Of a stretch of DNA of 64,000 bases, positions 28,978 through 50,152 are shown piece after piece; positions within the stretch are counted from its first letter, which is position 1; each line of letters begins with the position of its first letter. A program made the position numbers and the translations under genes. A model generated the notes under the pieces. The model was not told the DNA's origin. It was given only the letters and a program-made list of their open reading frames with translations, and did not search any database. This DNA comes from Oscillospiraceae bacterium (lineage in GTDB: Bacteria > Bacillota > Clostridia > Oscillospirales > Ruminococcaceae), in NCBI GenBank assembly GCA_022835495.1, contig BQOK01000001.1:124001-188000 (forward strand), given 5' to 3'.

Positions 28978-31089
28978 TTACAGCAGGTGCACCGCCACGA
29001 TCAGGCCCGCGAACACGATGGAAACCATGCTGGTGAGCTTGATGAGGATGTTGATGGAGGGGCCGGAGGTGTCTTTAAAGGGATCGCCCACGGTGTCGCC
29101 CACCACGGCGGCCTTGTGGCAGTCGCTGCCCTTGCCGCCGTGCTTGCCGCCCTCGATGTACTTTTTGGCGTTGTCCCACGCGCCGCCGGAGTTCGCCATC
29201 ATGACGGCCAGAACAAAGCCGGTAACAGTGGTGCCGGCCAGCAGGCCCGCCACACCGTTCACGCCCAGCAGCAGGCCCACCAGAATGGGCACGATCACCG
29301 CGATGAGGGCAGGGGCCAGCATGAGCTTTTGCGCGCTGCGGGTGCACATGTCCACACAGGCGGCGTAGTCCGGCTCGGCTTTGCCCTCCATCAGGCCCAC
29401 GATGCTCTTGAACTGGCGGCGGACCTCCACCACAATGCTTTGGGCGGCCTTGCCCACCGCGTCCATGGTGAGGGCCGCGAACAGGAAGGGCAGCATGCCG
29501 CCGATGAACAGGCCGATCAGGGTGGTGGGGTTGGTGATGGAGAGGTCCAGCACCATATCGGGCCGGATTTGGTGCACCTTGTCGATGTAGCTGGCGATCA
29601 GGGCCAGCGCGGTGAGCGCCGCCGAGCCGATGGCAAAGCCCTTGCCGGTGGCCGCCGTGGTGTTGCCCAGGGAATCCAGCGCGTCGGTGCGCTGGCGGAC
29701 CTCGGCGGGCATGTGGGTCATCTCGGCAATGCCGCCCGCGTTATCGGCAATGGGGCCGTAAGCGTCGGTGGCGAGGGTGATGCCAAGGGTGCTCAGCATG
29801 CCCACGGCGGAAACGCCCACGCCGTACAGGCCCATGTTGAAATCGGCCGAGCCGCCCGCGCAGAAGTAGCTCACGAGAACCGAAATGCCCACGATCACCA
29901 CAGGAGCCACGGTGGACAGCATGCCCAGCGACAGGCCGCTGATGATCACGGTGGCGCTGCCGGTCTCGCTGGAGGAGGCCAGCTTCTGGGTGGGTTTATA
30001 GGTATCGGAGGTGTAATATTCGGTGATGGCACCGATGGCCACGCCTGCCACCAGGCCGCTGATCACGGCGATGAACACGCCGGTGGCGTGCTCGGCGGGG
30101 AGCAGGGCGTGCACCGCAAACCAGGCGCACACCGCGATCAGCGCGCTGCTGATGTAGGTGCCGGTGCGCAGGGCGGTGAGCAGGTTTTTCTGGCTGGCGC
30201 CCTCTTTGGTCTTTACGAAGAAGGAGCCCGCAATGCTGCAGACCACACCCAGCGCCGCCAGCAGCATGGGCACGCCCACGCCGTTGATGCCAAAGCCCGC
30301 GGCCACGGCCAGCGCGCTGGTGGAAACGATGGAGCCCACGTAGGACTCGTACAGGTCGGCGCCCATGCCGGCCACGTCGCCCACGTTATCGCCCACATTG
30401 TCGGCGATGACGGCGGGGTTGCGGGGGTCGTCTTCGGGGATGCCGGCCTCCACCTTGCCCACCAGGTCGGCGCCCACATCGGCCGCTTTGGTGAAGATGC
30501 CGCCGCCCACGCGGGCGAACAGCGCCATGCTGGAAGCGCCCATGCCGAAGGTAAGCATGTTGCTGGTGATGTTCTGGATCAGAAGATCGGCGGTGGCCAC
30601 AGGGGCCACTGTGGTGTACCAGAACTTGAGGAAAAAGTACCAGATGGAAAGGTCCAGAAGGCCCAGGCCCACCACGGTGAAGCCCATGACGCTGCCCGCG
30701 GAAAACGCCACCCGCAGGCCCTTGTTCAGGCTGTTCTGGGCGGCGTTGGCGGTGCGGCAGTTGGCCATAGTGGCCGTTTTCATGCCGATGAAGCCGGACA
30801 GGCCGCTGAAAAAGCCGCCTGTGATAAAGGCAAACGGGGTGAAAAAGCTTAAAAAGCCCGCGGCAGCCATGGCCAGCAGCACGCAGAACACCACCGCAAA
30901 GAAGATGCCCACGCCCTTATACTGGCGTTTTAAGTAAGCGGTGGCGCCGTTGCTCACAGCACCCGAGATCTTTGCCATTTCCGGGGTGCCCACGGGCTGC
31001 TTTTTGACCCGCGCGAACATCACGGCCGCAAAGACCAGCGCGATCACAGAACCCAGCGCCACAAAATACATTGCATACATTGCGTTCAT
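28978..31089 (-). CDS. hppA: Membrane-bound ion-translocating pyrophosphatase, 703 aa
   Basis: Couples hydrolysis of PPi to pumping of Na+ or H+. About 16 membrane helices. The substrate-binding loop contains VGKVEAGIPEDDPRNP and DNVGDNVGD, and the C-terminal acidic motif is VGDTVGDPFKDTSGPS. The K+-dependence position reads NTTAATGKGFAIGS: alanine rather than lysine, so K+-dependent by the family rule, a class containing many Na+ pumps. AGGAGGG precedes the ATG. The single gene stands alone. Confidence 0.95.
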   Translation of the reverse strand: MNAMYAMYFVALGSVIALVFAAVMFARVKKQPVGTPEMAKISGAVSNGATAYLKRQYKGVGIFFAVVFCVLLAMAAAGFLSFFTPFAFITGGFFSGLSGFIGMKTATMANCRTANAAQNSLNKGLRVAFSAGSVMGFTVVGLGLLDLSIWYFFLKFWYTTVAPVATADLLIQNITSNMLTFGMGASSMALFARVGGGIFTKAADVGADLVGKVEAGIPEDDPRNPAVIADNVGDNVGDVAGMGADLYESYVGSIVSTSALAVAAGFGINGVGVPMLLAALGVVCSIAGSFFVKTKEGASQKNLLTALRTGTYISSALIAVCAWFAVHALLPAEHATGVFIAVISGLVAGVAIGAITEYYTSDTYKPTQKLASSSETGSATVIISGLSLGMLSTVAPVVIVGISVLVSYFCAGGSADFNMGLYGVGVSAVGMLSTLGITLATDAYGPIADNAGGIAEMTHMPAEVRQRTDALDSLGNTTAATGKGFAIGSAALTALALIASYIDKVHQIRPDMVLDLSITNPTTLIGLFIGGMLPFLFAALTMDAVGKAAQSIVVEVRRQFKSIVGLMEGKAEPDYAACVDMCTRSAQKLMLAPALIAVIVPILVGLLLGVNGVAGLLAGTTVTGFVLAVMMANSGGAWDNAKKYIEGGKHGGKGSDCHKAAVVGDTVGDPFKDTSGPSINILIKLTSMVSIVFAGLIVAVHLL

Positions 31090-31416: not shown

Positions 31417-32568
31417 ATGACAAAAGGCCTTGTGCTGGCGGGCGGCGGCGCCCGGGGAAGCTATCAGGTGGGGGTGTATAAGGCGCTGCGGGAGCTGGGA
31501 TGGAACCCCGGCGTGATCACGGGAACCTCGGTGGGCTGCCTGAACGGCGCGCTGTTTGCCCTGGACCAGTGGGAGCTGGCGCGGGATATGTGGCTGACCA
31601 TTGACGACGGCCAGGTGATGCTGCGCCCGGAAAACGGCACCGGCACCGAGCTGACCGCCTTTTTGGAAAACGTGGTGAAAAACGGCGGCATGGACGTGAC
31701 CCCGCTGGAGCAGACCGTCTGCCGCGCGGTGGACGAGGCCGCCCTGCGCGCCGCCCCGGTGCGCTACGGGCTGGTGACCGTGAATAAGCGCACCCTGCGC
31801 CCCCTGGAGCTGCCGCTGGAGGAGATCCCGGAGGGGAGGCTGGTGGATTATATGCTTGCCTCGGCAGCCTGTTTCCCCGCGTTCCGGCCCCGGGCCATCG
31901 ACGGGGAGGAGTTCATTGACGGCGGCTATGCAGACAATATGCCCTTAGGGCTTGCGGCCCGCATGGGCGCGGAAGAACTGCTGGCGGTGGATGTGGACGG
32001 GGTGGGCATCACCCGCCCGAACCTGACCGGGCTGCCCACCACCTACGTGCGCAGCCACTGGGAGCTGGGCAGCATTCTGGTGTTTCAGCCGGAAACGGCA
32101 AAGCGCAACATGGCCCTGGGCTACCAGGACTGCCACCGCGCCTTCGGCAAGGTGCTGGGGGCCGCCTACGCCCTGCGGGCGGGCGAGGAAAAGGCGCTGG
32201 CCGTGGGGTTTGCCCGGCCCTATGCGCGGCTGCTGAGGGACGCCATTTCGCGCAACCCCGCGCTGGCGCTGGCCGAGGGGGCGGCGGTGCTGCCCATGGA
32301 GGGGCTGCAGGCGGCGGGGGCGGAAAAGGCCCTTGCCCCGCTGGAACGCGCCTGCGAGCTGGCGGGGGTGGACCCGGTGGGAGTGTACACGGCCCGGGAG
32401 CTGTTCGGGGCGTTTTTGGAGGCCTCGGACCCGGCGGGGGCCGAGCGCTTTGCGCCCCTGCTGCGCGAGGACGCCGGGCTGTGCCTGAAGGAGACGGCGC
32501 TGGCCGCCGCAGCGCCCGGGGAGTTTTTGCAGGCCCTGGTGCGCGCCGCCCTGTTGGCCGCAGAGTAA
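31417..32568 (+). CDS. Patatin-like phospholipase, 383 aa
   Basis: Lipid acyl hydrolase with a Ser-Asp dyad. Oxyanion loop GGGARG (9-14), nucleophile in GTSVG (S38), and catalytic Asp in DGG (D168). The patatin domain fills the first 220 residues; the remaining 160 are helical and unassigned. No signal peptide, so cytosolic or membrane-associated. AAGGGGGCGG precedes the ATG. An Enzyme I-like gene follows at 72 bases. Confidence 0.9.
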   Translation: MTKGLVLAGGGARGSYQVGVYKALRELGWNPGVITGTSVGCLNGALFALDQWELARDMWLTIDDGQVMLRPENGTGTELTAFLENVVKNGGMDVTPLEQTVCRAVDEAALRAAPVRYGLVTVNKRTLRPLELPLEEIPEGRLVDYMLASAACFPAFRPRAIDGEEFIDGGYADNMPLGLAARMGAEELLAVDVDGVGITRPNLTGLPTTYVRSHWELGSILVFQPETAKRNMALGYQDCHRAFGKVLGAAYALRAGEEKALAVGFARPYARLLRDAISRNPALALAEGAAVLPMEGLQAAGAEKALAPLERACELAGVDPVGVYTARELFGAFLEASDPAGAERFAPLLREDAGLCLKETALAAAAPGEFLQALVRAALLAAE

Positions 32569-32640: not shown

Positions 32641-34269
32641 ATGCAGGTCTATAAAGGGGTGAGCGCTTCGCCCGGGCTGGTGATGGGGCCGATCTACCGG
32701 ATCCACCACAGCGGGGCCGGGCTGGGGCGCATCGTGGAGCTGCCGGTGCGGGAGCAGGCCCTGTTCGACGCGGCGGTGGTGCTGGCGAAGGACGAGCTTC
32801 GGCAGCTGGAAGAGGCTGCCGAGGGCGAGGACAGGGACATCATCCTGTTTCAGCGCGTGATGCTGGACGACCCTGCGCTGAACAGGGAGGTGCAGGAATA
32901 CATCGCCGCCGGCGCGGGCAGCGCCGCCGCCATGGAGCGGGCCGCCGCCATCTGCGCCAGGCGCATTGAATCGGTGGACGACGAGTACATACGCCAGCGC
33001 TCGGCCGACGTGCTGGACGCCTGCCGCCGGGTGGTGAACATCCTGGACGGAAGGCCCCGCACCCCGGTGCAGCTGGAGATGCCCAGCATCCTTGCGGGGG
33101 AGCGCATCTTCCCCAGTGACATTGTGTCGGTGGGGCGGGGTATGATCCTGGGGATCGCGGCGGCGGAGGGCAGCGTGCAGAGCCACGCCGCCATCATTGC
33201 CCGGACCATGGGCATCCCCGCGGTGGCCCAGCTGGGCCCGGCCTTTTTGAACGAGGCGCCCCTGACCCGGGGCATCCTAGACGCGGACAACGGCCGCCTG
33301 GTGGTGGACCCGGACCGGGAGGCGGTGCGGGCGGCCCAGCGGCGGATCGTGAGCGGCGGCATTTTGAAAAAGCGCATGGGCGTTTTGAAGAGCCAGCCCT
33401 GCGTGACGCTGGATGGGACCATCCTTTCGCTGCGGGCCAACTGCTCCTGCCCGGAGGACATTGAGATCGCCATGGAGGCCGGGGCCGAGGGGGTGGGCCT
33501 GCTGCGCAGCGAGTTTATGATCGCGGACGGGCGCATCCCCGGCGAGGAAGAGCAGTACTATTTTTACATCAGCTGTTTGCAGGCCGCGGGCGGCAAGCCG
33601 GTGACGGTGCGGACCTTTGACATCGGCTCGGACAAAACCGTGCGCGGGGTGAGCGAGCCCGCCCTGAACCCGGCGCTGGGGATGCGGGGCATCCGGATGA
33701 GCCTGGCGCGGCCCCAGATGTTTTTGGATCAGGTCTGCGCGCTGCTGCGTGCCGCGGCCAAGGGGCCCCTGCAGGTGATGTTCCCCATGATCACCTGCGC
33801 CGAGGACTGGCGGCTGACCATGGAGCTGGTGGACCGGGCCAAGGCCCAGCTGCGCCAGAGGGGCGTGCCCTTTCAGGAGGACACGGTGTTCGGCAGCATG
33901 ATCGAGGTGCCCAGCGCGGCGCTTTTGGCCCCCGAGCTGGCGGCCCAGGGATGCGGGTTTTTCAGCATCGGCACCAACGACCTGACCCAGTACACCTATG
34001 CGGCGGACCGGCTGGACGGGCGGTTTTCGGGATATTTTGCGGGCGAATCCACCGCGGTGCACCGGCTGATCGACCTGACGATCGCCGCGGCAAAGCAGGC
34101 GGGGCTGCCCGTGTGCGCCTGCGGGGTTTCGACCTCGGACCCGGGGCGGGCGGTGCGCTATGCCCGGCAGGGGGTGCGCATTTTGTCCATGGAGGCTTCC
34201 AGCATCCTGCCGGTGAAGGCCAAGCTGCTGGAGGCGGACCTGGCGGCGCCTGAGACCGCGCAGGGGTAG
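32641..34269 (+). CDS. Atypical PTS Enzyme I paralog, 542 aa
   Basis: Same domain order as Enzyme I. The phospho-histidine is retained in GSVQSHAAIIAR (H182) although the usual GGxTSH reads GSVQSH. The PEP-binding barrel is present: GAEGVGLLRSEF, VTVRTFDIGSDK and SIGTNDLTQYT. The C-terminal motif GMCGE(M/L)A reads VCACGVST, keeping the cysteine but losing the glutamate. A normal Enzyme I is encoded at 54931 beside HPr. This copy has no HPr or EII gene nearby, so it may phosphorylate a different partner. The ribosome site is modest (GTGGAAG). Confidence 0.85.
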   Translation: MQVYKGVSASPGLVMGPIYRIHHSGAGLGRIVELPVREQALFDAAVVLAKDELRQLEEAAEGEDRDIILFQRVMLDDPALNREVQEYIAAGAGSAAAMERAAAICARRIESVDDEYIRQRSADVLDACRRVVNILDGRPRTPVQLEMPSILAGERIFPSDIVSVGRGMILGIAAAEGSVQSHAAIIARTMGIPAVAQLGPAFLNEAPLTRGILDADNGRLVVDPDREAVRAAQRRIVSGGILKKRMGVLKSQPCVTLDGTILSLRANCSCPEDIEIAMEAGAEGVGLLRSEFMIADGRIPGEEEQYYFYISCLQAAGGKPVTVRTFDIGSDKTVRGVSEPALNPALGMRGIRMSLARPQMFLDQVCALLRAAAKGPLQVMFPMITCAEDWRLTMELVDRAKAQLRQRGVPFQEDTVFGSMIEVPSAALLAPELAAQGCGFFSIGTNDLTQYTYAADRLDGRFSGYFAGESTAVHRLIDLTIAAAKQAGLPVCACGVSTSDPGRAVRYARQGVRILSMEASSILPVKAKLLEADLAAPETAQG

Positions 34270-34286
34270 ACCGAAAGGAAAAAAGA

Positions 34287-34919
34287 ATGAAAATAGGCGT
34301 GATACAGGCCAGCTCGCAAAAGGAGAAAAACCGGCTTTTATATGAGTGCACAAAAAAGGCGGTGCAGGGCAAAGGCCATGAGGTGATCAATTTCGGGGTA
34401 CAGGCCGGGGACGGCGCGGAGTACAGCTATGTGCAGGCGGCCCTTTTGATCTGCCTGCTGCTGGAGAGCAAAGCGGTGGACTTTGTGGTGACGGGCTGTT
34501 CCTCGGGCCAGGGCATGATGCTGGCCTGCAACAGCCTGCCCGGGGTGCTATGCGGGTACGCCCCCACCCCCGCCGACGCGTACCTGTTCGGGCGCATCAA
34601 CGGGGGAAATGCACTGTCGGTGCCGCTGGGGCTGAACTTTGGGTGGGCCGGGGAAATAAACCTGCAGTACACCCTGAACGCGCTGTTTGAAGAACCCTTT
34701 GGCATGGGCTACCCCCCGCAGGACGCTGGCAGGAAGCAGACGGACACCCGGCTGCTGAAAAGCATCAACCGCGCGGCCAAGCGGGAGCTGGCCGATGCGC
34801 TGGCCCGCCTGGACCCCGGATTTGTGGAAAGCTGCCTGCAGTGGGAAAGGGTGCGGGACTTTATTTTGCAGCACGGCCGCCGTTCCGGCCTGGCGGAATG
34901 GCTGGGCGGCTGCGGCTGA
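34287..34919 (+). CDS. RpiB/LacAB-family sugar-phosphate isomerase-like protein, 210 aa
   Basis: MKIGVIQASSQKEKNRLLYECTKKAV and VVTGCSSGQGMMLACN follow the RpiB fold and its active-site cysteine loop (normally GTGIGxxIAANK). The protein has about 60 more C-terminal residues than RpiB (usually near 150). It starts 17 bases after the Enzyme I-like gene with GAAAGG, so the two are coupled. It may act on a phosphosugar made through that paralog, but the substrate is unknown. Confidence 0.75.
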   Translation: MKIGVIQASSQKEKNRLLYECTKKAVQGKGHEVINFGVQAGDGAEYSYVQAALLICLLLESKAVDFVVTGCSSGQGMMLACNSLPGVLCGYAPTPADAYLFGRINGGNALSVPLGLNFGWAGEINLQYTLNALFEEPFGMGYPPQDAGRKQTDTRLLKSINRAAKRELADALARLDPGFVESCLQWERVRDFILQHGRRSGLAEWLGGCG

Positions 34920-34930
34920 CCGCCTGTTTT

Positions 34931-34959
34931 AAGGGGCGCCGGAAGATCCGGCGCCCCTT
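34931..34959. terminator. Intrinsic terminator
   Basis: AAGGGGCGCCGGA pairs perfectly with TCCGGCGCCCCTT; T-rich DNA lies on both sides, so it may serve both converging genes. Confidence 0.7.
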
Positions 34960-35071
34960 GGCTTTAAAAAAGAGATTCGCAAAATGCAGCGGCGGGGCAA
35001 GGGCGCAAAAAATTGGCGGCGCCGGGGGTTTTGCCCGCCAGGCCCCCCACGGGGGGCACCGGGGAAAGGGG

Positions 35072-36490
35072 CTATTCCGGCCGGCCTTCCAGTTGGGCCA
35101 AAGTGAGGTTTTGCAGGCGGTACACCGCCAGGGCATACACCGAAAAGCTCTGGTCCAGCGTGGCCAGATTGGTGCCCTCGTCCGGGCCGTGGCAGCTGCC
35201 CACACAGGACGGCTTTTCCTCATCTTCGGGAAGGCCCGGCCCAAAGCTGACCGCCCGCCTGAAACACCGGGCGTAGGTGCCGCCGCCCCAAGCATAGGCG
35301 GGCGCGCCGCTTCCGGTCACATCCCGGTAGGCTTTCATCAGGGTCTGGAGGACTTTGTCTTCCGGAGGGATATAAAAGGGGGCCGAGGCGCTGAGAAGGC
35401 GAAAATCGCCCCCCGCGCTTTTGGCCAGCGCAGACAGCGCGCTGGTTAGGCTGCCGCTGCTGGTCGCAGAGGGGTAGCGGATGTTCATGTTTTGGCGCGC
35501 CAGGCCGTTTTCCACCCGCAGGATCCCGCCCGCACAGGTGAGCGGCCCGAAGATATCGTCGCGGCAGGCAAGCCCCAGCCCTTCGCCGTAAAAAGAGCGG
35601 TGCAGCTTTTGCAGCAGCGCGAAGGCGGGCTGCTCGCCGGGGCTGAGCAGCCCGTTTTGCAGCAGAAAGTCCAACAGGAGCCCGGCTGCGCTGACGCCGC
35701 GCTCCGGCATGGCGCAGTGGGCGCCGACGCCCCGCGCGGTGAGCCGGAAAAGCGGGCCCTCGGCCCGGACGGAAAGGTCTGCCGGCAAAAGCAGGGTGGG
35801 ATCCCACTCCCGCAGCCAGCACACGGCCTGCTCCGGGATCATGTTACTGGCATCGCCCGACTGGAGCCGCTGCACCTTCCCGGCGGGCATCGGCAGGGTC
35901 CATTCCCCCTCGAACAGCCCCTTTTCGCCGCTGCAGACCGGGAACAGAGCGTCGGAGGACAGACAGAACGCCGGCTGGGGCTGCGCCGCGAGATACGGCC
36001 CCACATCCCGCATGCCTGTTTCTTCGGCGCAGCCCATCAGGGTGCGCAGGGTATAGCGCAGCGGCACGCCGCTCTCGCGCAGAAACTTTGCCAGATACAT
36101 GCAGTACACCAGCGCGCCCTTGTCGTCGTCGGTGCCGCGGCCGATCAGCCATTGGCCCCGCCGCTCCATGCAAAACGGGTCAAAGTGCCAGCCCTCGCCC
36201 GCGGGGACCACGTCCAGGTGGGTGATGGTGGCGATGTGCTCTTTCTGCCGGCCGGGCAGGTCGAACCAGCCCATATATCCCTGGTGGTGGTGCGGCTCAA
36301 AGCCCATGCGCCGGGCAATGGCCAGGGCGGCGTCCAGCGCTTGGCGGGGGCCGGGGCCGAAGGGCGCCCCGGGCGCCGGCGGCCCTGCCACGCTGGGAAT
36401 CGCCACCAGCGCGGCGAGGTCCTGAAGGATGGCCTCTTTGTTTTCCTGCAAAAACGCCTGGGCCCGGCGCAGCAATTCCTGTTCCTGCAT
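35072..36490 (-). CDS. M20-family metallopeptidase (PepV/Xaa-His dipeptidase-like), 472 aa
   Basis: Di-zinc peptidase. Metal-binding motifs: THLDVVPAG (His and catalytic Asp), GTDDDKG, CAEETG (catalytic Glu pair) and CHGPDEG near the C-terminus. Length and an inserted lid domain fit the PepV group of dipeptidases. The start is taken as the second in-frame ATG (36490), six bases from AAAGGG; the ATG at 36496 is too close. It follows the MmgE/PrpD gene by 73 bases on the same strand and may belong to that operon. Confidence 0.85.
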   Translation of the reverse strand: MQEQELLRRAQAFLQENKEAILQDLAALVAIPSVAGPPAPGAPFGPGPRQALDAALAIARRMGFEPHHHQGYMGWFDLPGRQKEHIATITHLDVVPAGEGWHFDPFCMERRGQWLIGRGTDDDKGALVYCMYLAKFLRESGVPLRYTLRTLMGCAEETGMRDVGPYLAAQPQPAFCLSSDALFPVCSGEKGLFEGEWTLPMPAGKVQRLQSGDASNMIPEQAVCWLREWDPTLLLPADLSVRAEGPLFRLTARGVGAHCAMPERGVSAAGLLLDFLLQNGLLSPGEQPAFALLQKLHRSFYGEGLGLACRDDIFGPLTCAGGILRVENGLARQNMNIRYPSATSSGSLTSALSALAKSAGGDFRLLSASAPFYIPPEDKVLQTLMKAYRDVTGSGAPAYAWGGGTYARCFRRAVSFGPGLPEDEEKPSCVGSCHGPDEGTNLATLDQSFSVYALAVYRLQNLTLAQLEGRPE

Positions 36491-36563
36491 ATGCATCCCT
36501 TTCGATCAATGGCAGCGCGGCCGCCCCGGAGGCCCGGGGCGGCCGCGCTGTGAAATGGCTTTT

Positions 36564-37946
36564 TTACCGGCCGGACAGCAGCGCGGTGAGCTCGTTCAGG
36601 TCGGTACAGGCTTCCAGATGGGCCACGCCCGCGGCAAACGCTTCGGCGTTTTCCCGGCCGATGAAATCGGCGGCGCGCGCCACGAAGAATTCCTGTTCTT
36701 CCCGCAGCGTGAAGTTGTTGCGGGGGTGGCCCTTGGGGCAGCGCAGGGTTTCGCGGAAGGTGCGCCCATCCTTGCAGGCCACCTCCACGGTGGTTTCGGG
36801 GAAGGTGCCCTGCCAGAACACCTCGAACATGTGCAGGCGGTTGGCCTGCGGGCCAAAATACTCCACAATCCCGGACAGTTCGCACAGCTCTTTGCTGGAG
36901 CGGCTCTCGAGGCTGTACCAATCTTCCGAGGGCTTTTTGCCGCTCAGGTAGCAGGCGAAGCAGTGGGGCAGGCTGTATTCCGCCTGGATGAGGCCCATGG
37001 GCAGCGGGTTTTCGGCGCTGATGATGTCGATGATGGGGGAAACCCGGACCTTTTCAATGTCGGCCAGGGTGAGTTTTTCCCGGGTGCAGATGTTGTGCAG
37101 GCCGTCCAGAGGGGCCTGCACCCATACGTTGGCAGGCCAGTGCTTGAGCAGGGTTTCGTTGATGTAGAAGGTCTTGCCAAGATCCTTGTCCAGCCAATCC
37201 CAATCGCACTTGTTGGAGACGTACAGCCAGTAGCCGGTGTCGCCCTCCAGGCCGTCGTAATAATACTCGAAGCCCTGTTTTGTGATCTCGGCGCTCTCGG
37301 CGCCGCTTCTGCCCGCGATGCCGTGGGCGTAGTGGTAAATGTCGCCGTCGCCGTCCTTTCCCATGAGGGTGGGCGCCTGATATGCGGCCAGCGAGATGCA
37401 GGCCGCCATCTGCGCGGCGTCGAGCCCCAAGAGCTTGCCCGCCGCCACCGCCGAGGCGAACACCTGCCAGTTGACCAGCCCCCAGCCCCGGCCCTGGGCC
37501 AGGTAGCTGTCGAATTCCGGCTGCACTGCCATGGCGATGCGCTGGTATACCTCGTAGGCGGCCACGATCGCCGTGATCACATCCCGGCCTGCCGCGTGGG
37601 TCTGCTCGCCGTAGGCAAAGGATGCGGGGATCGCGCCGGCCGAGGCGTGACCGGTCCAGGTGCAGTCTTCCCAGTCCAGCACGTCCGACGCGGCGCCGTT
37701 GGCGTACACCGCGTCCGCAGCGGCCACACGCACGCTCGGCGCCCCCCAAAGGGTGGCCTGGGCACAGCTGCCCCGGCTGGCGGCCAGCGCGGCGGCGTTG
37801 GCCGTGGGGCTCATTTTGGTGCTGGCGATGCTCACGCCGATGGTGTGCAGAATGATTTTTTTGGCCTGTTCCACGGCGTCGGCGGGCAGGTCCTCGTAGT
37901 TCAGCTGCGCCGCGTATTGGCCCAAGATCCTGGTGTATTCTTTCAT
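36564..37946 (-). CDS. MmgE/PrpD-family protein, 460 aa
   Basis: The family includes 2-methylcitrate dehydratase, cis-aconitate decarboxylase and iminodisuccinate epimerase. The helical core with NGAASDVLDWEDCTWTGHASAG (about residues 82-103) is the family active-site region, with the D and H present. The C-terminal mixed domain is complete. AGGAGGT precedes the ATG. No prpB or prpC genes are nearby, so a methylcitrate role is unsupported. Placed after an MFS gene under a LacI operator, it probably acts on an imported carboxylic acid. Confidence 0.85.
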   Translation of the reverse strand: MKEYTRILGQYAAQLNYEDLPADAVEQAKKIILHTIGVSIASTKMSPTANAAALAASRGSCAQATLWGAPSVRVAAADAVYANGAASDVLDWEDCTWTGHASAGAIPASFAYGEQTHAAGRDVITAIVAAYEVYQRIAMAVQPEFDSYLAQGRGWGLVNWQVFASAVAAGKLLGLDAAQMAACISLAAYQAPTLMGKDGDGDIYHYAHGIAGRSGAESAEITKQGFEYYYDGLEGDTGYWLYVSNKCDWDWLDKDLGKTFYINETLLKHWPANVWVQAPLDGLHNICTREKLTLADIEKVRVSPIIDIISAENPLPMGLIQAEYSLPHCFACYLSGKKPSEDWYSLESRSSKELCELSGIVEYFGPQANRLHMFEVFWQGTFPETTVEVACKDGRTFRETLRCPKGHPRNNFTLREEQEFFVARAADFIGRENAEAFAAGVAHLEACTDLNELTALLSGR

Positions 37947-38134
37947 CTCGTACCTCCTGAAAATTATGGTTTGATTTATTTATTAAAAACTCAGTTTAAA
38001 GCACCCGCGCCGCACCCTTTGCGGGGCAGCCGGCCTGTATGTGAAAAACGGCGCTCAGCACCCCTGTTTTTATAAACCTGCCGGCATGGCGGTGGGGCGC
38101 GGCCCCGAGAGCCATGCCTTTGCAGGGATGCGGC
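37947..38134 (-). other. Intergenic repeat-like region
   Basis: No gene. The stretch AAAGCACCC...CCTTTGCGGGGCAGCCGG around 37995-38035 resembles AAAGCACCC...CCTTTTGCGGGGCACCCGG at 39655-39692, suggesting a dispersed intergenic repeat. No clear terminator. Confidence 0.4.
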
Positions 38135-39433
38135 TCAGGAAGCCTTGGCGGGCTCCACATAGCCCTGGAAGCCGGGGCGGGTTTCCACCCACAGCGGGTG
38201 CTTTTTGCTGGTGGCCACCACGCCCAGGATGAGCAGGATGACCGACAGACCGCCGAAAATGGCGAACACGGTATTGTAGGAGCCCACCTTGTCGTAGGTA
38301 AAGTTGAGCAGCGGGAAGCCCAGGGTACTGCCGATGGTGCGGAAAACAACGGAATAGCTCATGAATTTGGAGTATTCTTTAAAGCCGAATACGTCACGCA
38401 TGAACACCGGCAGCACCGTGAACAGAATGATGCCCACGCCCATTGCCAGGCCGATCACAGGGCCCAGGAAGCTGCGTTCCGGTGTGATGACCAGCAGAGA
38501 GGCGATGGCAAGCAGGTAGCCGCCCACGCACAGCGTTGTGCCGACCCGCACGCCCCAGCGATCCATTGCCCAGCCCAGCGGCAGCAAAAACACCACGGAC
38601 CCAATGCTGAACAGGCCCACCACATCGCCCGAGAACACCGTGTCGAAGCCGACCTTGCTCAGGTGCGCCGGTACGGCGTACACCACCGGGTACACGATCA
38701 GGCCGGTGATAAAGGTCCAGAGGTACGCGCAATACAGCTTGGGCGAGCGCAGCGAGGTTTTGAACCGTGCGCCGGGCAGGGTGGCGGGGTCCGGCTTTGC
38801 TTCGGTTTCGCCCTCCTTGTGCTCCACCCCCCAGGGGGTAAGATTCTTTGCGGACGGGTGATCCCGGATGACCAGGAACACCAGCACGGTCACGGCCAGG
38901 ATCAGCCACATGGTATAGAGCATTGCCGTGCGCCAGCCGGAGCTCTCGATCCAGGAGGCGACCATCTTGGAGGTAAAGAAGGCGCAGAGGTTGCTGAAGG
39001 TGAACATGGCGCTGATGATGGTGGCGCCTTTGCGGGCGAACCAGTTGTTGACAATGTTGCCCACGCTGACCTGGCTGAACAGCGGCCAGATAAACCCGGA
39101 AACCGCCGACGCCAGAAAGATCATGGGCAGATTGCCGGAAACGGCGTAGAGCAGCGCCGCCAGGGCGCCGGCAAACGCGCCGGCGGTGATGATGTAGCGG
39201 ATCTTAAACCTGCGCTCGATGCGGACATACAAAAAGTATAACACGCCGGACACGATCTCGTTAAAGGACTGCGTGAGGGAATAAGCGCCGTGGGAGATGC
39301 CCAGTTCCTCGGTGATGGGCACCATATAAAGACCGAACGCGTTGCTGAACAGGAACACAGCTGGCAGCGCGATGGCGTACACGATGACCACTAAAAACGC
39401 ATAGTGGAATTTCCGGTTTGAAGTTTGTTTCAT
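38135..39433 (-). CDS. MFS transporter, oxalate/formate-antiporter-like (OFA), 432 aa
   Basis: Twelve membrane helices with a central cytoplasmic loop near residues 190-225. FSNAFGLYMVPITEELGISHGAYSL resembles the OFA monocarboxylate group, and LPLGWAMDRWGVRVG is the MFS loop motif of the second half. The ATG at 39433 has GAGGAGG; the upstream TTG lies inside that site. A LacI operator sits 40 bases before the start. The MmgE/PrpD gene follows, suggesting a carboxylate substrate. Confidence 0.88.
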   Translation of the reverse strand: MKQTSNRKFHYAFLVVIVYAIALPAVFLFSNAFGLYMVPITEELGISHGAYSLTQSFNEIVSGVLYFLYVRIERRFKIRYIITAGAFAGALAALLYAVSGNLPMIFLASAVSGFIWPLFSQVSVGNIVNNWFARKGATIISAMFTFSNLCAFFTSKMVASWIESSGWRTAMLYTMWLILAVTVLVFLVIRDHPSAKNLTPWGVEHKEGETEAKPDPATLPGARFKTSLRSPKLYCAYLWTFITGLIVYPVVYAVPAHLSKVGFDTVFSGDVVGLFSIGSVVFLLPLGWAMDRWGVRVGTTLCVGGYLLAIASLLVITPERSFLGPVIGLAMGVGIILFTVLPVFMRDVFGFKEYSKFMSYSVVFRTIGSTLGFPLLNFTYDKVGSYNTVFAIFGGLSVILLILGVVATSKKHPLWVETRPGFQGYVEPAKAS

Positions 39434-39472
39434 GAATGGCCTCCTCAAAAAAATAATTTTTGTTTTGAAAAA

Positions 39473-39484
39473 GGGAACGTTCCC
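39473..39484. promoter_or_regulatory. LacI-type operator GGGAACGTTCCC before the MFS gene
   Basis: Perfect 12-base palindrome with central CG, the LacI/GalR operator form, identical to sites at 41244 and 42350. Confidence 0.85.
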
Positions 39485-39494
39485 AATTTACTAT

Positions 39495-39645
39495 AAAAAA
39501 TATACGCCCAGAGGCCGTATATTTTTTATTGCTCCGCAATAAAAAACTTATCTTGAGGGCCCTGTCCCTCGCCGCTTGCGCGGCAACCGGGGCAGATGGC
39601 CGAAAAAATAGCCTGCGGCTATTTTTTATTGCTCTGTAATAAAAG
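39495..39645. repeat. Twin hairpins with a repeated 3' flank
   Basis: Hairpin one: AAAAAATATACG / CGTATATTTTTT (39495-39527). Hairpin two: AAAAAATAGCC / GGCTATTTTTT (39603-39627). Each is followed by ATTGCTCYGYAATAAAA, so a unit of about 25 bases recurs 100 bases apart. Either may terminate the symporter gene on the minus strand. Confidence 0.65.
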
Positions 39646-39730
39646 CTTGATCCCAAAGCACCCCTGCCCCGCCTTTTGCGGGGCACCCGGTATGGAGGTG
39701 CAAAAAACAGCCTTTGCTTCGCTGCGGAAG

Positions 39731-41212
39731 TCAGCTTTTTTGCGTGCTTTTCACGCGGCGGAATTTTTCCTGGAAATAATAGGTGGCCTCGATCTCCTGC
39801 CGGGTGGGGGCTTTGCCAAACCGCTGGCCGATCAGGCAGCCGGCCAGGCAGCAGGGCAGCCCGATCCAGATGGCGTCGAGCCCCCAGGGGCGCCCCAGGA
39901 GGGTCCAAAGAAGGGCGGCGGCCCCGCCGCAAACAATGCCCGCCATGGCGCCCTCGGTGTTCATTCGTTTGGAGAACCAGGCGAACAGGTAAGGGATCAC
40001 CAGCGCGGCCGCGCAGATGGACATCACCACGTCCATCAGTTCCATGATGCCCTGGAACCAGAGGGACAGCCCGATGCTGAAAACCGTGCACAGGGCAATG
40101 CCCAGGCGGCTCAGGGCGATGTCCTTTTGATCGCCGATCACCCGACCCTTCGAGACAAGGTAGGTTTGAATGACGTTTTTGGAGATGATCATGCCGCCGG
40201 CGAACAGGGTGGAGGACGCGCAGGACATGATGGTGGAGAGGACCCCGTACAGCAGCAGCAGCCCCACCACGGGACCGGCCTTCATCATGAGCTCGTAAAA
40301 CACCATATTGGGTTCCACGCCGGGACCCAGCAGCACTTTTGCGGCCACACCGATGTAGCAGGGAACCAGCAGGATGGGCAGAACCAAAAAGGTGCCGAGG
40401 TACAGGCCTTTTTTTGCCGAGGCGTCGTTTTTGGCGGAGGCCACACGCTGCAGATCGTCCTGATTGCCAACAATGACCAAAAGGCCCATGGTGATGCAGT
40501 AATAAACAAGTTCTTTCACCCAGCCAAACCCCTGGAACAGGGAGAGCGCCTGCGGTTGGCCGGCCGCCTGATAGAAATCGGCCACCGGCTGCCAGCCGCC
40601 CAGCGAATACAGCACGAAGCCCAGCATTAAAAACGGGCAGAGGGTCTGGAACACCGACTGGATGAAGTTGGTGACCATCACGCTTAAAAAGCCCGAGATG
40701 GAGGTATAGAACAGAATGATGGCCGCCGATACCAGCACCCCCTGAACGTGGGACCAGCCCAGCACGGTTGTGAGCAAAAAGGCCATTGCGTTGAACTGCA
40801 GGCCCATCATCATGCAATATTTCAGGGCAAAGCCGATGCCCACCAGATACTGGATGGCGCCGTTGTAACCCGGGAAGCGCTTTTGATAAAACTCTGCGAT
40901 GGTGAACAGCTTGAGTGAGCGCAGGCGGCTGACGAAAAAGAAGATCCAGGGCAGGGTGACAAGGTACAGGCTCGCATAGCTCCACCAGCTCACCACGCCC
41001 CCCATATAGCTGCCGGCGCAAAGCCCGATGAGCCCTGCGCTGCCCACCCACGCGCCAATGCTGACCGCCGCGATCACTGCGGAGCCGAACCGGTTTGCCG
41101 CCAGGCCGAAATCGTTGATGGATTTTGTGGCCTGCCTGCGCAAAACGACGCCGATCACGATCATGGCCGCCATATACACCGCCATGGCGGCGACACAAAA
41201 GGTTGTACTCAT
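39731..41212 (-). CDS. Sodium:solute symporter family protein, 493 aa
   Basis: Thirteen or so membrane helices of the SSS family, as in PanF, PutP and sugar symporters. The N-terminus with RRQATKSINDFGLAANRFG and the segment FTIAEFYQKRFPGYNG are family hallmarks. GAGGAGG precedes the ATG. A GGGAACGTTCCC operator lies 32 bases upstream and the regulator gene is next door. The substrate is unknown but probably shared with or related to that of the MFS transporter. Confidence 0.9.
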   Translation of the reverse strand: MSTTFCVAAMAVYMAAMIVIGVVLRRQATKSINDFGLAANRFGSAVIAAVSIGAWVGSAGLIGLCAGSYMGGVVSWWSYASLYLVTLPWIFFFVSRLRSLKLFTIAEFYQKRFPGYNGAIQYLVGIGFALKYCMMMGLQFNAMAFLLTTVLGWSHVQGVLVSAAIILFYTSISGFLSVMVTNFIQSVFQTLCPFLMLGFVLYSLGGWQPVADFYQAAGQPQALSLFQGFGWVKELVYYCITMGLLVIVGNQDDLQRVASAKNDASAKKGLYLGTFLVLPILLVPCYIGVAAKVLLGPGVEPNMVFYELMMKAGPVVGLLLLYGVLSTIMSCASSTLFAGGMIISKNVIQTYLVSKGRVIGDQKDIALSRLGIALCTVFSIGLSLWFQGIMELMDVVMSICAAALVIPYLFAWFSKRMNTEGAMAGIVCGGAAALLWTLLGRPWGLDAIWIGLPCCLAGCLIGQRFGKAPTRQEIEATYYFQEKFRRVKSTQKS

Positions 41213-41243
41213 GCCTGCTGCCTCCTCAGCTTTTCCATTTTAA

Positions 41244-41255
41244 GGGAACGTTCCC
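41244..41255. promoter_or_regulatory. LacI-type operator GGGAACGTTCCC before the symporter gene
   Basis: Second perfect copy of the 12-base palindrome, between the symporter gene and the LacI gene. Confidence 0.85.
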
Positions 41256-41296
41256 ATTTTTGGGCGCAATTCTCTTTTTTCATTTTTTTGCGCCGG

Positions 41297-42319
41297 TCAG
41301 GCGGGGCCCGGCCCCACCGACCTGCGCATTTCCATGGAGTAAGACATCATGATATCGCGGTATTCCAGCTCGCTGTTCCCGATCACCTCCAGCATCAGCT
41401 TTGTGATGAGCACGCCGTACTCGTAATCCGACACGAACGCCGAGGTGAGAAAATGTTCCTCTGTTTCGTCGCGCTGAATGGTCACAAGGGAAAAGTCCTG
41501 GGGGCAGCGCAGGCCCTTTTCCTGAAAGTAAAAACGCACCGCCTGGGCGCAGGTCATTTCGTCGGCAAAGACAGCGGTGTATTTGCCCTTTACAAAATAC
41601 TTGTACAGGGCCTCGAGATACTCGGCGGTGGGGCTTCCGTCGGCGGGGGCGGGGTAAAAATCGGACGTGTTGTAGGCGCAGCCCATTTGAAAGCAGGTAT
41701 TCTCCCAGGCGCGCATCCGGGCCTTGCGGAATTGTTCGTCCCGCGGCTGAAAGCCGACGATCGTGAGCACGCGCTTGTGCCGGTTCATTACAAGAAGCCG
41801 GTAAAGGTCGCTGCTGTAATTATAGTTGCCATGGTATACCCGAAAACCCCGGCTGGCCTGCAGGCGTTCGCCCCCGTAGACCACATTTCGGAACTGATTG
41901 GCCGCCTGCTGCACCTCGGGAAGGTCGTCCCACCCAAGGGTGATGAGCCCCTGGATGCGCTGCTGGCGCAGATACCGCACATATTTGGGAACATAGCCGG
42001 GCAGGTCCTGGGCCATGAGGTCGTGCACGATCATGAGATCGCAGTCGTTTTCGCTTAAAGTATCCAGGATGCCGGCCACACGCCGGGAAATGGTGGGGTT
42101 GACAAACATCCCCTTGCCCAGGGACAGAATGCCCACCACCGTGTGGTGCACGCCGCGCAGGCCCCTGGCCATATAGTTGGGGTAATACCCCATTTCCTGC
42201 ATGGTGCGCTCCACCAGCTCCCGGGTCCTGGGGCTCACCGAGCCCCCATTGAGTACGCGGGAGATCGTGCTTTTGGAAACGCCGGAGCGTTTGGCGATAT
42301 CCAGAATGGACAGTTCCAT
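41297..42319 (-). CDS. LacI-family transcriptional regulator, 340 aa
   Basis: N-terminal LacI headpiece (SILDIAKRSGVSKSTISRVLNGG, residues 3-25) and a C-terminal periplasmic-binding-protein-like effector domain. The ATG at 42319 follows GAGGTG; the longer frame would run through its own operator. Three identical operators precede this gene, the symporter and the MFS gene, so it is very probably autoregulated and controls both transporters. The effector is unknown. Confidence 0.93.
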   Translation of the reverse strand: MELSILDIAKRSGVSKSTISRVLNGGSVSPRTRELVERTMQEMGYYPNYMARGLRGVHHTVVGILSLGKGMFVNPTISRRVAGILDTLSENDCDLMIVHDLMAQDLPGYVPKYVRYLRQQRIQGLITLGWDDLPEVQQAANQFRNVVYGGERLQASRGFRVYHGNYNYSSDLYRLLVMNRHKRVLTIVGFQPRDEQFRKARMRAWENTCFQMGCAYNTSDFYPAPADGSPTAEYLEALYKYFVKGKYTAVFADEMTCAQAVRFYFQEKGLRCPQDFSLVTIQRDETEEHFLTSAFVSDYEYGVLITKLMLEVIGNSELEYRDIMMSYSMEMRRSVGPGPA

Positions 42320-42349
42320 AAAGCACCTCTTCTTTCTGCCGCAAATATA

Positions 42350-42361
42350 GGGAACGTTCCC
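42350..42361. promoter_or_regulatory. LacI-type operator GGGAACGTTCCC before lacI-type gene
   Basis: Third perfect copy, 31 bases upstream of the regulator ATG; indicates autoregulation. Confidence 0.85.
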
Positions 42362-42507
42362 AAAAACATTATAGCCAGCCTTTCGGTCAACGTCAAGAGG
42401 CTGCAAAAAAATTTCCTTTTTGACCAAACATTATGAGCTTTTTTTGAACAGTTTCCCGTATGTGCATCCCGATATCCCCCGCAGGCCCGCTTCACGGAAA
42501 AAAACGC

Positions 42508-42556
42508 ACAAAAAAGCGCCTTTGAATTTGGCCTAAAAGCCATTTTCAAAGGCGCT
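42508..42556 (-). terminator. Intrinsic terminator of the small Cys-rich gene
   Basis: On the minus strand AGCGCCTTTGAA and TTCAAAGGCGCT form a perfect 12-bp stem followed by TTTTT, about 100 bases after the 36-residue gene. Confidence 0.75.
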
Positions 42557-42652
42557 CTTACATGGGGAGCGGTCAGCATATCGAATGATACGCGCTGAAC
42601 AGAAAGAAGCGACTTTACCAGAAGCGGATCTCGGTGAGATAAAGAAGGCGGT

Positions 42653-42763
42653 TTAAACCTTTCCGATCGACCGGATGCACTCGGCACAGACCGCGTTTTC
42701 GCCCTGCACCCGCAGGCTTTCGGCGGAGCCGCACAGGGCGCACTGCGGCGTTTCCTTTTCCAT
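42653..42763 (-). CDS. Small CXXC-rich protein or gene remnant, 36 aa
   Basis: MEKETPQCALCG and AVCAECIRSIGKV give two CxxC knuckles, a zinc-ribbon pattern. In frame upstream of the ATG the reading frame continues back to about 42848 (YRVAVRLTLEGRRVV before the ATG) and looks coding, but no start with a ribosome site is seen. It is either a complete small zinc protein or the 3' end of a truncated gene. A good terminator follows. Confidence 0.5.
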   Translation of the reverse strand: MEKETPQCALCGSAESLRVQGENAVCAECIRSIGKV

Positions 42764-42912
42764 CACCACACGCCGGCCCTCGAGCGTCAGCCGCACCGCA
42801 ACACGGTAAGAGCACTGTCTTGCCCCATGTTGTCTAATGTGAGAAAAAGGGTATTTAGTTCAGCAAGTCTTTTTGTGTCAAAATCACAACTTCCTTTTTG
42901 AAAGGGAAATAC

Positions 42913-43248
42913 TTGGCCAATCGGATCAAAGACATACGGGAAGCGCTCAAGCTGTCGCAGCGGGAATTTGGGGAAAAGCTGGGCGTGAGCCGTGATGTAA
43001 TCAGCAATCTGGAATATGACCGTGTGCAGCCCAAGGAGCTTCTTCTTCGGCATATCTGTGAATTGTACGGGGTCAACCAGAATTGGTTGGGAACCGGTGA
43101 GGGAGAAATGTTTTACCGCGATCCGGCGCAGACGGAAAAGCTGGATGAGGCGATTGGCATTTTTAAAACTCTGCGCCCCGAATTTCAGGATTACGCGCTG
43201 GAGCAATTGCGTAGATTGGCCGAGCTTCAGGAAAAGAAAACAGATTGA
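42913..43248 (+). CDS. XRE-family helix-turn-helix regulator, 111 aa
   Basis: Cro/C1-type DNA-binding domain: NRIKDIREALKLSQREFGEKLGVSRDVISNLE at residues 3-34, then a helical tail. The start is TTG at 42913 with GAAAGGGA at good spacing; the TTG at 42898 lies within the ribosome site. A TTGTG-N7-CACAA dyad at 42873-42889 just upstream may be its operator. It sits directly beside the IS200 insertion. Confidence 0.8.
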   Translation: MANRIKDIREALKLSQREFGEKLGVSRDVISNLEYDRVQPKELLLRHICELYGVNQNWLGTGEGEMFYRDPAQTEKLDEAIGIFKTLRPEFQDYALEQLRRLAELQEKKTD

Positions 43249-43505
43249 TTTTCTTGGGATTTACGATACCAATAAAGAATAATGCCCCCCTCACAATGAA
43301 AGGTGGGGGCCGGCACAAAATAGCTTACAATAAAAAAATGAGACGGACTTCCCAACGGGAGGCCGCCTTATTGTCGTGCAAAACCACACGTTAGACGTGT
43401 GGTACAAAAGAGCTTAAGCGATGAAGAAGAAATAAAAACTCCTTTTGCTATAATGAAACTGCGGTCTGCCAACTGCAGTAAGAAAGCAAAAGGAGGACAT
43501 TCAGA

Positions 43506-43544
43506 ATGAGCCTGAATGACATAAATAGTTTATCCCATACAAAA
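43506..43544 (+). pseudogene. tnpA: 5' fragment of IS200 tnpA (codons 1-13)
   Basis: ATG with AAAGGAGG upstream, reading MSLNDINSLSHTK, the standard opening of IS200 transposases (normally SLSHTKWNCKYH). The frame is then broken by the inserted element; the remainder resumes at 50153. Confidence 0.85.
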
Positions 43545-43547
43545 GTA

Positions 43548-43567
43548 CAGTTTACAAGGGACTACAC
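43548..43567 (+). repeat. Left terminal inverted repeat of the mobilizable element
   Basis: CAGTTTACAAGG then GACTACAC; matches the complement of 50126-50145 at 19 of 20 positions. Confidence 0.8.
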
Positions 43568-43600
43568 AGGGTAGGTATCTGACGGGAGGGGTTCCGCCCG

Positions 43601-45112
43601 TCAGATTTTCCATGTGATATTCAAGCTGTCGCTTGTGGCGGCTATGGTGGTAATCATCAAGTCCACCACCCGCCGTTTGTCGTCAAAGGATACATTCTCC
43701 CAAGTGTCGAGGTAGCCGGAAATCTGGCTGACCTGTTCCGGGCTGATGGCTTCCACCGTTAGTTCCGCTATCCTCGCCAGAAGTTCCTGCTTGCGTCCGT
43801 CCAGTTCTGCTATCTTCACATTCACATAGGAGAGCAGCACATTGTTTGCGCTCGTCAGACTGTCCACCAGTTTTTCAATCTCGCCGTCCACATGGGCAAG
43901 TTCCACTTGCAGGGCGGCAATTTTCGGGTTTGCCTTTGCCGCTTTCTTTCTGCCTGTCAGCGTCTTGTAGCTTGCCAGTTTCTTTACCATCTGCTGATAA
44001 ACAACCGTTTCCAGTTCCGAAGTGATGATTTTCCCGCACCCGGCACAGCTTTTATTGTCCAGCCGTTTTGTGCAGCGGAGATATTGCTTTCCCACAGGAT
44101 TGTTAATGCTCATAAGGGCATACCCGCAGTTTCCGCACTTGATTTTTCCCGCCAGCCATGTATGGGTGGCTTTCCGGGCAGACTGGATTTTCATGTTGTT
44201 CATCAGCTTCTTGCGGCAGGTCAGCCAGATGTCGGAGGGGACAATGCCCTCATGGGGAGCCAGCACCAGCATTTGGTCTTTCAAGTCGTTCTTTTTGCTG
44301 GGCTTCACATCCCGCCCTTGATACAGATAGCAGCCATTCATGCCGGTAAAATCGGCAGCGTCATTGACAATGATTGTCCCTTGACTTTTGAAAAATTCGT
44401 ACACATCAAGGTCTGCCTGCACATAGACAGGATTGCGTAACATCTGCGCCAGCGTGGGGCGTATTAGTTCCTTGCCGTTGAATAAAATTCCCTGTTCGGC
44501 AAAGTACCGGGTAATATCCCCGTAGGAGGTTGTGGGCTGGGCGTACATCTCGAACATCAGCCGGATATTTGCCGCTTCGTCTGGGTTTACCACCAGCTTC
44601 TTTGTGTTGATACCGTCCATCTTGATTGGCTCTGTATGGAAGCCGTAAGGGGCTTTCCCGCCCATCTTGAAGCCTCGCTGGCTACGGGAATAGTAAGCGT
44701 CCGTTACCCGCTTCTGTATGGTTTCTCTCTCAAGCTGGGCGAACACGATACAGATATTCAGCATCGCCCGCCCCATCGGGGTGGAAGTATCAAACTTTTC
44801 CGTAGAGGACACAAACTCTACATTGTACTGCTGGAACAGCTCCATCATGTTGGCAAAGTCCAGAATGGAACGGCTGATACGGTCGAGCTTGTAAACCACG
44901 ACTTTTGCAATCAAGCCCCGCTTGATGTCCCGCACCAGTTCTTGAAACTTCGGACGGTCTGTGTTCTTGCCGCTGTACCCCTTGTCTGTGTATTCCTTGC
45001 AGTTACCGCCTTTCAACTCGTATTTGCAAAATTCAATCTGGCTTTCAATGGAAATGCTGTCCTTTTTGTCCACCGATTGTCTTGCATAGATTGCGTCTAT
45101 TCGATTATTCAT
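43601..45112 (-). CDS. Large serine recombinase, 503 aa
   Basis: Integrates and excises the element. Resolvase domain with nucleophile S13 in YARQSVDKK and the helix KVVVYKLDRISRS; recombinase domain with GGKAPYGF; zinc ribbon CGNCG...C...CAGCG; and a coiled-coil stretch near 370-430. The layout is that of transposon recombinases such as TndX/TnpX. AAGGAG precedes the ATG. The gene lies 33 bases inside the left end, reading toward that end, as usual for this class. Confidence 0.95.
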   Translation of the reverse strand: MNNRIDAIYARQSVDKKDSISIESQIEFCKYELKGGNCKEYTDKGYSGKNTDRPKFQELVRDIKRGLIAKVVVYKLDRISRSILDFANMMELFQQYNVEFVSSTEKFDTSTPMGRAMLNICIVFAQLERETIQKRVTDAYYSRSQRGFKMGGKAPYGFHTEPIKMDGINTKKLVVNPDEAANIRLMFEMYAQPTTSYGDITRYFAEQGILFNGKELIRPTLAQMLRNPVYVQADLDVYEFFKSQGTIIVNDAADFTGMNGCYLYQGRDVKPSKKNDLKDQMLVLAPHEGIVPSDIWLTCRKKLMNNMKIQSARKATHTWLAGKIKCGNCGYALMSINNPVGKQYLRCTKRLDNKSCAGCGKIITSELETVVYQQMVKKLASYKTLTGRKKAAKANPKIAALQVELAHVDGEIEKLVDSLTSANNVLLSYVNVKIAELDGRKQELLARIAELTVEAISPEQVSQISGYLDTWENVSFDDKRRVVDLMITTIAATSDSLNITWKI

Positions 45113-45206
45113 ATTGTCGCTCCTTTTCTTAAAAAAGAAACGGAGCTGCTGACAGCCTTATTATACCGCCAGCAGCCCCGCAAATCAACGATGGCTTTGG
45201 AAAACC

Positions 45207-45422
45207 TTATGCCCCGGCTTCCTCACTCTGCCGTTTGTCGGCATACTTGCGGAACACCTCATAAAGCTGCTGTTCCAGCTCTCGGCGTTTTGCCGCTTCC
45301 TGCTCCGGCGTGAACACCGGGGAGAGGTTTTCCAGCGTGATTTCCCTGCCTTGAAAAGTCACGACTTCCGTTTCCTTTTTGTATCTGATAGTGGTACTTA
45401 TAAAATCACCTTTCCTTTCCAT
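45207..45422 (-). CDS. Small mobile-element protein, 71 aa
   Basis: MERKGDFISTTIRYKKETEVVTFQ followed by a Glu/Lys/Arg-rich helix (TPEQEAAKRRELEQQLYEVFRKYADK). Short proteins of this kind often sit between the recombinase and mobilization genes in clostridial elements; no function known to me. Its start overlaps the end of the relaxase gene by 17 bases, implying coupled translation. Confidence 0.65.
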   Translation of the reverse strand: MERKGDFISTTIRYKKETEVVTFQGREITLENLSPVFTPEQEAAKRRELEQQLYEVFRKYADKRQSEEAGA

Positions 45423-46350: not shown

Positions 46351-46533
46351 TCTGCTCCTTTCCCCATTCCGTTCCTTTCCGGGACTTTTCCACAGGAAAA
46401 TCCCGCAGAAAATATCTCGGATAGGAAGGGAATGGATAGAATATAAATCAATATTTTTATCTCTGTATTTCTATATACCGTCCGATTTTCGTACTTCAAG
46501 AGGATTGATTATCGTACTTGTGGGGTGCGGTTT
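46351..46533. other. Gap between relaxase and RepA-like genes
   Basis: No gene. TCGTACTT occurs at 46489-46496 and 46512-46519 as direct repeats 23 bases apart, AT-rich DNA preceding. Possible protein-binding or nic region; not assignable. Confidence 0.35.
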
Positions 46534-46929: not shown

Positions 46930-46938
46930 AGTGTGTTT

Positions 46939-48278: not shown

Positions 48279-48319
48279 TCTACAACTTTCAGTTTATCAA
48301 GCAGACAAGGAGGGAGAGC

Positions 48320-49120: not shown

Positions 49121-49158
49121 GAGAGCGATAAACAAGAAATCTGAAAGGAGTTATCAAT

Positions 49159-50145: not shown

Positions 50146-50152
50146 ACCTAAA

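Follow-up and report, generated by a model that had tools for sequence, protein, structure and literature searches.

An ordinary Enzyme I (EI) phosphorylates HPr from PEP, and HPr~P can phosphorylate EI backwards. DhaM of dihydroxyacetone kinase contains an EI-like part fed by HPr, an earlier case of an EI-derived phosphohistidine domain that lacks a PEP site of its own. In the numbering that we take to apply, the PEP/Mg residues of the Escherichia coli enzyme are R332, R358, E431, N454, D455, R465, and C502. One account gives H189 and R296 as active-site residues of E. coli EI (PMC7385036), and another also gives H189 and describes the free enzyme as taking up an open state that matters for the transfer of phosphoryl groups with HPr (PMC5537066). 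EI-Ntr (PtsP) and EI-R are EIs found in genomes without PTS transporters and are thought to be regulatory (PMC2405797). Among RpiB-family proteins, the DHU isomerase DhuI has been described from Streptococcus agalactiae, and a dhuD reductase gene beside dhuI is usual, not universal (PMC12838403). Among patatins, CapV and CapE of CBASS, which have been solved with cyclic nucleotides, show that members of this fold can be switched by a signal.

The window analyzed here is a stretch of 64,000 nucleotides (G000:C1:124001-188000) from a genome of 3.76 Mb in 2 contigs. It encodes a patatin-like lipase, an EI paralog, and an RpiB-like protein in a row and, further downstream, a fructose-PTS operon with a second EI (Table 1). 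With near certainty, the conserved unit at this locus is the two-gene patatin-EI pair, which recurs in a group of related bacteria.

Table 1. Features of the window discussed in the text, in positions of the window
Feature	Position	Strand	Basis
Membrane pyrophosphatase, divergent; left synteny marker common to the closest genera	28978..31089	-	PF03030, 901 bits
Patatin-like lipase, 383 aa, first gene of the conserved pair	31417..32568	+	PF01734, 99.3 bits (cut-off 27.7)
EI paralog, 542 aa, second gene of the conserved pair	32641..34269	+	ORF, Pfam, TIGR01417, clade tree
H182 codon of the EI paralog, predicted phosphohistidine, aligned with E. coli H189	33184..33186	+	Kept in 60/60 clade members
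Segment of ~16.5 kb separating the EI paralog from the fru operon	34270..50802		Synteny in 9 loci; Pfam
RpiB-like protein, 210 aa, DhuI/PRK09273 family; local neighbor outside the conserved unit	34287..34919	+	NF006753, 4u8e
Fructose-PTS operon DeoR-FruK-FruA-HPr-EI	50803-56637	+	Pfam and ORF reading
DeoR-type regulator of the fructose-PTS operon	50803..51624	+	PF00455 and PF08220
FruK-like kinase	51621..52526	+	Sequence and operon position, synteny; MIYTV start codon picked by eye
FruA, fructose EII (EIIA and EIIC domains)	52583..54562	+	PF02378 and PF00359, G000:C1:176598-178385
HPr of the fructose operon	54624..54887	+	PF00381, 103.4 bits
Ordinary EI with GGTTSH and CGE	54931..56637	+	PF02896, 369 bits

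The original prediction of a second EI that retains H182 is borne out. The protein contains all three EI Pfam domains in order (PF05524, PF00391, and PF02896) and clears the NCBIfam EI model TIGR01417 narrowly, at 344 bits against a cut-off of 341.7; its closest solved structures are the EIs 2wqd and 2hro, which we take to be staphylococcal. It resembles PtsI in its three-domain order, its phosphohistidine, and its predicted PEP/Mg site, which is intact: of the nine predicted catalytic residues, aligned to E. coli EI positions, H182, R289, R324, R349, E422, N446, D447, R457, and C494 are all present. It differs from PtsI in belonging to a separate clade, in lacking the CGE glutamate, in its pairing with a patatin, and in the altered PEP half of several relatives. 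The motif changes described previously read as claimed, with GSVQSH for GGxTSH in the histidine loop and CGV for CGE in the cysteine loop, where V496 replaces the glutamate, but the first of them is weak, GGxTSH being absent from 10 of the 15 comparison EIs (those labeled L206-L215_canon) and so not a strict rule. The CGE glutamate is kept in all 15 comparison EIs and in 24 of the 59 other clade members, and it is missing also from several members that are the only EI found in their genomes (L126, L169, and L166); we regard it as a usual EI feature and do not treat it as defining. PtsP has an N-terminal GAF domain, for which the paralog, with EI domains starting at residue 5, has no room, and the paralog scores below the PtsP model NF008283 (267.2 bits against a cut-off of 583); its lipase partner further sets it apart from EI-Ntr and EI-R. 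Unlike DhaM, it is a full-length EI in which no fused EIIA-man or HPr was found, and it falls far below the DhaM model NF008478 (89.7 bits against 520).

Using a cut-off of E 1e-100, we found the EI paralog in 60 of 396 genomes of the family, from 17 of its 126 genera, and matches at about 1e-87 to 1e-97 (such as those in g62, G014, and G380) were counted outside the clade. An even draw of 394 genomes from the order gave 10 genomes with a match at E 1e-90: six carry a clade member and all belong to the family, and the other four, matched less strongly at 1e-91 to 1e-97, were counted outside. A tree was built without the nine test columns by a quick method that flagged long branches. In it, a branch with SH-aLRT 100 separates all 60 paralogs from the 15 comparison EIs, of which five belong to fru operons and 10 come from nine other genomes; the sub-cut-off matches L206-L211 joined the comparison EIs, and G067 was left out of the tree. 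One in-frame TGA each is reported in the paralogs of G509 (L170) and G746 (L204).

The patatin of the trio lies upstream of the EI paralog on the same strand. It has the features of patatin-like phospholipases, namely the Pfam Patatin domain, GxSxG, the DG dyad, and the fold, and both GxSxG (G36, S38, and G40) and D168-G169-G170 are invariant in all 29 aligned sequences. The predicted structure (pLDDT 91.6) comprises a patatin fold at residues 1-246 and a helical C-terminal part. Residues 1-246 share their fold with PlpD (Z 27.3, rmsd 2.4, 219 aligned) and with CapV and CapE (Z about 22). The C-terminal helices (about residues 258-381) are barely covered by the listed structure matches, and such sparse coverage does not speak for a new fold. 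Unlike the CBASS lipases, the patatin of the pair has no cyclase or nucleotide signal known to us, and it scores 21.6 bits on the CBASS lipase model against a cut-off of 200.

By coordinates, 72 bases separate the patatin from the EI paralog in the window. A patatin lies directly upstream of EI on the same strand in 33 of the 60 clade loci, spread over 11 of the 17 genera, and the next most frequent neighbor families occur in 15 and 14 of the 60; neighbors were assigned by tblastn with cross-locus support, because the DNA is high in GC and longest-ORF calls favored antisense frames. Among the 32 loci other than that of the window, spacing ranges from −14 to 203 bases, and nine of them show the 4-base overlap typical of coupled translation. 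Family-wide, a close patatin (at least 300 bits, a line set after the scores were seen) is found in 35 of the 396 genomes. All but one of these 35 also have the EI paralog, and in 33 of the 34 the two genes are adjacent; in the remaining one, G612, the close patatin is on another contig, and the contig with EI breaks off 183 bases upstream of it. G226 (L296, genus g65) has a close patatin without an EI within the 14 kb around it. A further 67 of the 396 genomes have a patatin at E 1e-50, at 176 to 273 bits. No adjacent patatin was found in 27 of the 60 loci, six of which span less than 1.3 kb upstream; among these 27 genomes, only G612 and G685 (a weak match of 176 bits) have a patatin at E 1e-50, and the remaining 25 keep the EI paralog with no patatin found at that threshold in the family-wide search. 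Only six loci of g232 and one of g24 (L127, L174-L178, and L184) have, directly downstream of EI and in the same orientation, a gene whose product reads from its sequence as a member of DegV, a fatty-acid-binding family. Among the matches listed in a literature search of titles and abstract openings, with subscription journals mostly outside its coverage, the EI-patatin pair was not found; the match to all query words concerns olaquindox resistance.

The paralog had been described as occurring with no EII or HPr, which is not confirmed, since the window itself contains the fructose-PTS operon; in the closest genera this operon directly follows the EI paralog. Gene order there (g218 and g25, read in nine of 10 loci) is a divergent pyrophosphatase, patatin, EI-like, DeoR, FruK, and then FruA, HPr, and EI. 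FruK follows in all nine loci, DeoR in eight (L159 has no DeoR match), the pyrophosphatase is present in seven, the patatin in eight, and HPr and an ordinary EI in all nine. The source genome has an ordinary PTS, the fru operon of the window with its own EI and HPr. Three PF02896 proteins are encoded in that genome: besides the paralog and the ordinary EI there is one whose open frame spans 880 aa and which, from its size, is probably pyruvate phosphate dikinase. A PF00381 search detected two HPr proteins, at 178627 and 1456108 of C1; the first is the HPr of the fru operon, inside the window, and the second, which carries H15, is flanked by TrmD-like and UvrC-like genes in ORFs read by eye. 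On the far side of the pyrophosphatase, window positions 25896-28790 hold three consecutive genes that read as a ribose-type ABC permease (judged by eye), a Gfo/Idh oxidoreductase, and a TIM-barrel epimerase and that may form a sugar or inositol cluster.

The RpiB-like ORF described previously lies downstream on the same strand, and its family membership is confirmed: it passes NF006753/PRK09273 with 254.4 bits against a cut-off of 137, and its best PDB relative is 4u8e (gbs1892), matched over the full length at E 1.5e-52. We take gbs1892 to be the DhuI of S. agalactiae; DHU isomerase activity of the window protein is only predicted, and it differs from the described case in that no DhuD dehydrogenase is among the genes next to it, which are M20, PrpD, MFS, SSF, and LacI. 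The earlier proposal that the EI paralog phosphorylates or regulates this protein as a dedicated branch is favored by the gap of 17 bases that separates the two ORFs on the same strand. The pairing, however, was found in this genome only. An RpiB-like gene was not detected in any of the other 59 EI-clade loci, 56 of which include at least 700 bases downstream of EI (the other three span less), and the EI paralog, any other EI, and the patatin were all absent from the best 80 of the 206 DhuI-family loci found, 67 of which span at least 2 kb on both sides. The RpiB-like gene also starts the ~16.5-kb segment, which further contains M20 peptidase, PrpD, MFS, SSF, LacI, resolvase, Mob_Pre, and RepA_N genes. 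The closest genera have no such segment at this position, so an insertion or rearrangement in this lineage has probably placed the RpiB-like gene next to EI. On these three grounds the trio of EI, RpiB, and patatin was rejected, and an EI-RpiB branch is refuted as a conserved system; the proposed dedicated branch is now very improbable. It is nearly certain that no conserved RpiB link exists in the genomes searched. Conservation of gene order, proposed as the check, thus fails for RpiB and holds for the patatin. A wider cluster of the RpiB-like gene with M20, PrpD, MFS, SSF, and LacI was likewise rejected, none of these five genes occurring in the same best 80 of 206 DhuI loci. Window positions 42898-50802, mostly of lower GC (about 0.46-0.51 from 42 to 50 kb), carry helix-turn-helix regulators and serine recombinase, Mob_Pre, and RepA_N genes and are likely an integrated mobile element.

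Across the clade, the two halves of the EI paralog have fared differently. H182 is kept in all 60 members. Thirty-one members, the window protein among them, have all nine residues intact, and the other 29 are altered: all seven from g31, all seven from g214, all six from g25, all five from g65, all three from g264, and one of the four from g218, a pattern that needs at least five state changes on the EI tree. Of the altered proteins, 14 lost one residue, which may leave PEP use unabolished, and 15 lost two to seven. Retention, measured over columns invariant in the 15 other EIs with the nine excluded, is similar for the N half in intact and altered members (0.883 and 0.895) and falls for the C half from 0.875 to 0.685, being lower in each of the five altered genera (0.529 to 0.761). 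Mean identity within genera is clearly higher in the N half than in the C half in g214 (0.76 vs. 0.49) and modestly so in g31 (0.57 vs. 0.46), with little or no difference in g25, g65, and g264; a tendency to higher N-half identity is also seen in g9, g19, and g255, whose sites are intact. The 15 comparison EIs show the reverse, with 0.40 in the N half and 0.55 in the C half.

The paralog is the only EI found in 17 of the 60 genomes, judged by PF05524 at E 0.001 in draft genomes, nine of these 17 being under 90% complete. Its site is intact in all 17, compared with 14 of the 43 genomes with another EI, and all 29 altered proteins come from genomes with another EI; the association gives a Fisher p of 8e-7 on raw counts and is not significant once descent is allowed for, a descent-aware sign test yielding five independent pairs, of which about one agrees, none opposes, and the rest show no difference. 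HPr was found in 15 of the 17 (all except G023 and G598). None of the EII families PF02378, PF00359, and PF03610, the three searched, was detected in 15 of the 17, a likeness to genomes with EI-Ntr or EI-R, and this suggests that the paralog is used outside transport in these fifteen. G722 shows a marginal EIIC match (E 5.8e-4). In G503, which is 99% complete, the paralog is the sole EI beside one HPr and a fructose EII that has both EIIA and EIIC, an indication that it can do the work of a true EI. We considered HPr as a sign that the paralog works and rejected it: an HPr with H15 is present in all 14 only-EI genomes read but also in 15 of 15 genomes without an EI found, so its presence is uninformative on this point. 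In those 15 chosen genomes from the family or order (L251-L265), both H15 and the S46 region of HPr are kept intact.

We propose tentatively, giving the idea less than even weight, that the EI paralog is a PTS-phosphorylated regulator of a lipase, phosphorylated H182 controlling the partner patatin. In this proposal, the conserved unit is a two-gene operon, patatin followed by EI. H182 would be phosphorylated from PEP by the protein's own site in the window's species and backwards from HPr~P where that site has been lost, its phosphorylation state would control the patatin, and lipid turnover would follow the PEP/PTS state of the cell. Conservation of the N-terminal half, with the HPr-binding helices and the phosphohistidine, extends over the whole clade, and the predicted PEP site is kept wherever no other EI was found and altered in several lineages with one. 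A kept phosphate-carrying half beside a decaying PEP half hints at such a sugar-state switch on a lipase; against it stand the 27 loci without an adjacent patatin, the heavily decayed site of genus g31, where no adjacent patatin was found, and the intact site of the window protein. The most specific form of the proposal is a phosphohistidine relay: an EI-derived protein, which in some lineages has lost PEP binding and is fed backwards by HPr~P, would bind a patatin and gate it, so that the turnover of membrane or storage lipids would depend on the glycolytic PEP/PTS state. This form seems rather unlikely.

The main rival, which we rate level with the lipase-regulator proposal and likewise short of an even chance, is that the paralog is an ordinary working EI that phosphorylates HPr from PEP and whose adjoining patatin is co-transcribed for unrelated reasons. 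The nine intact residues make this possible for the window protein, and the genomes with no other EI found, most of them with HPr, argue for it more broadly, as do G503 and the position of the paralog beside the fructose-PTS operon in the closest genera. An ordinary EI would, however, leave the pairing with one patatin subfamily unexplained, as well as the lack of the three EII families in most only-EI genomes and the decay of the C half, with the N half spared, in several genera that have another EI. A redundant EI copy heading to loss, persisting through its operon position while the patatin holds the selected function, would account for the repeated alteration of the PEP site, the in-frame TGA codons, and the solitary patatin of G226. 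Drift should also strike the histidine and the HPr-binding half, yet H182 is kept in all 29 altered members and N-half retention is unchanged or higher; this, and the 27 loci that keep EI with no adjacent patatin found, makes redundancy improbable. What stands of the earlier interpretation is an EI subfamily that is distinct, possibly serves more than sugar transport, and has a patatin as its conserved partner; the trio and the EI-RpiB pair do not stand.

For the biology of these bacteria, the record is corrected in that the RpiB link is local and the patatin link real. If the lipase-regulator proposal is true, a PTS output would act on a lipase, and the EI-HPr pair would have a job in genomes where the searches detected no PTS transporter. 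The clade would also provide natural material, with PEP sites ranging from intact to decayed, for asking what an EI does without PEP use.
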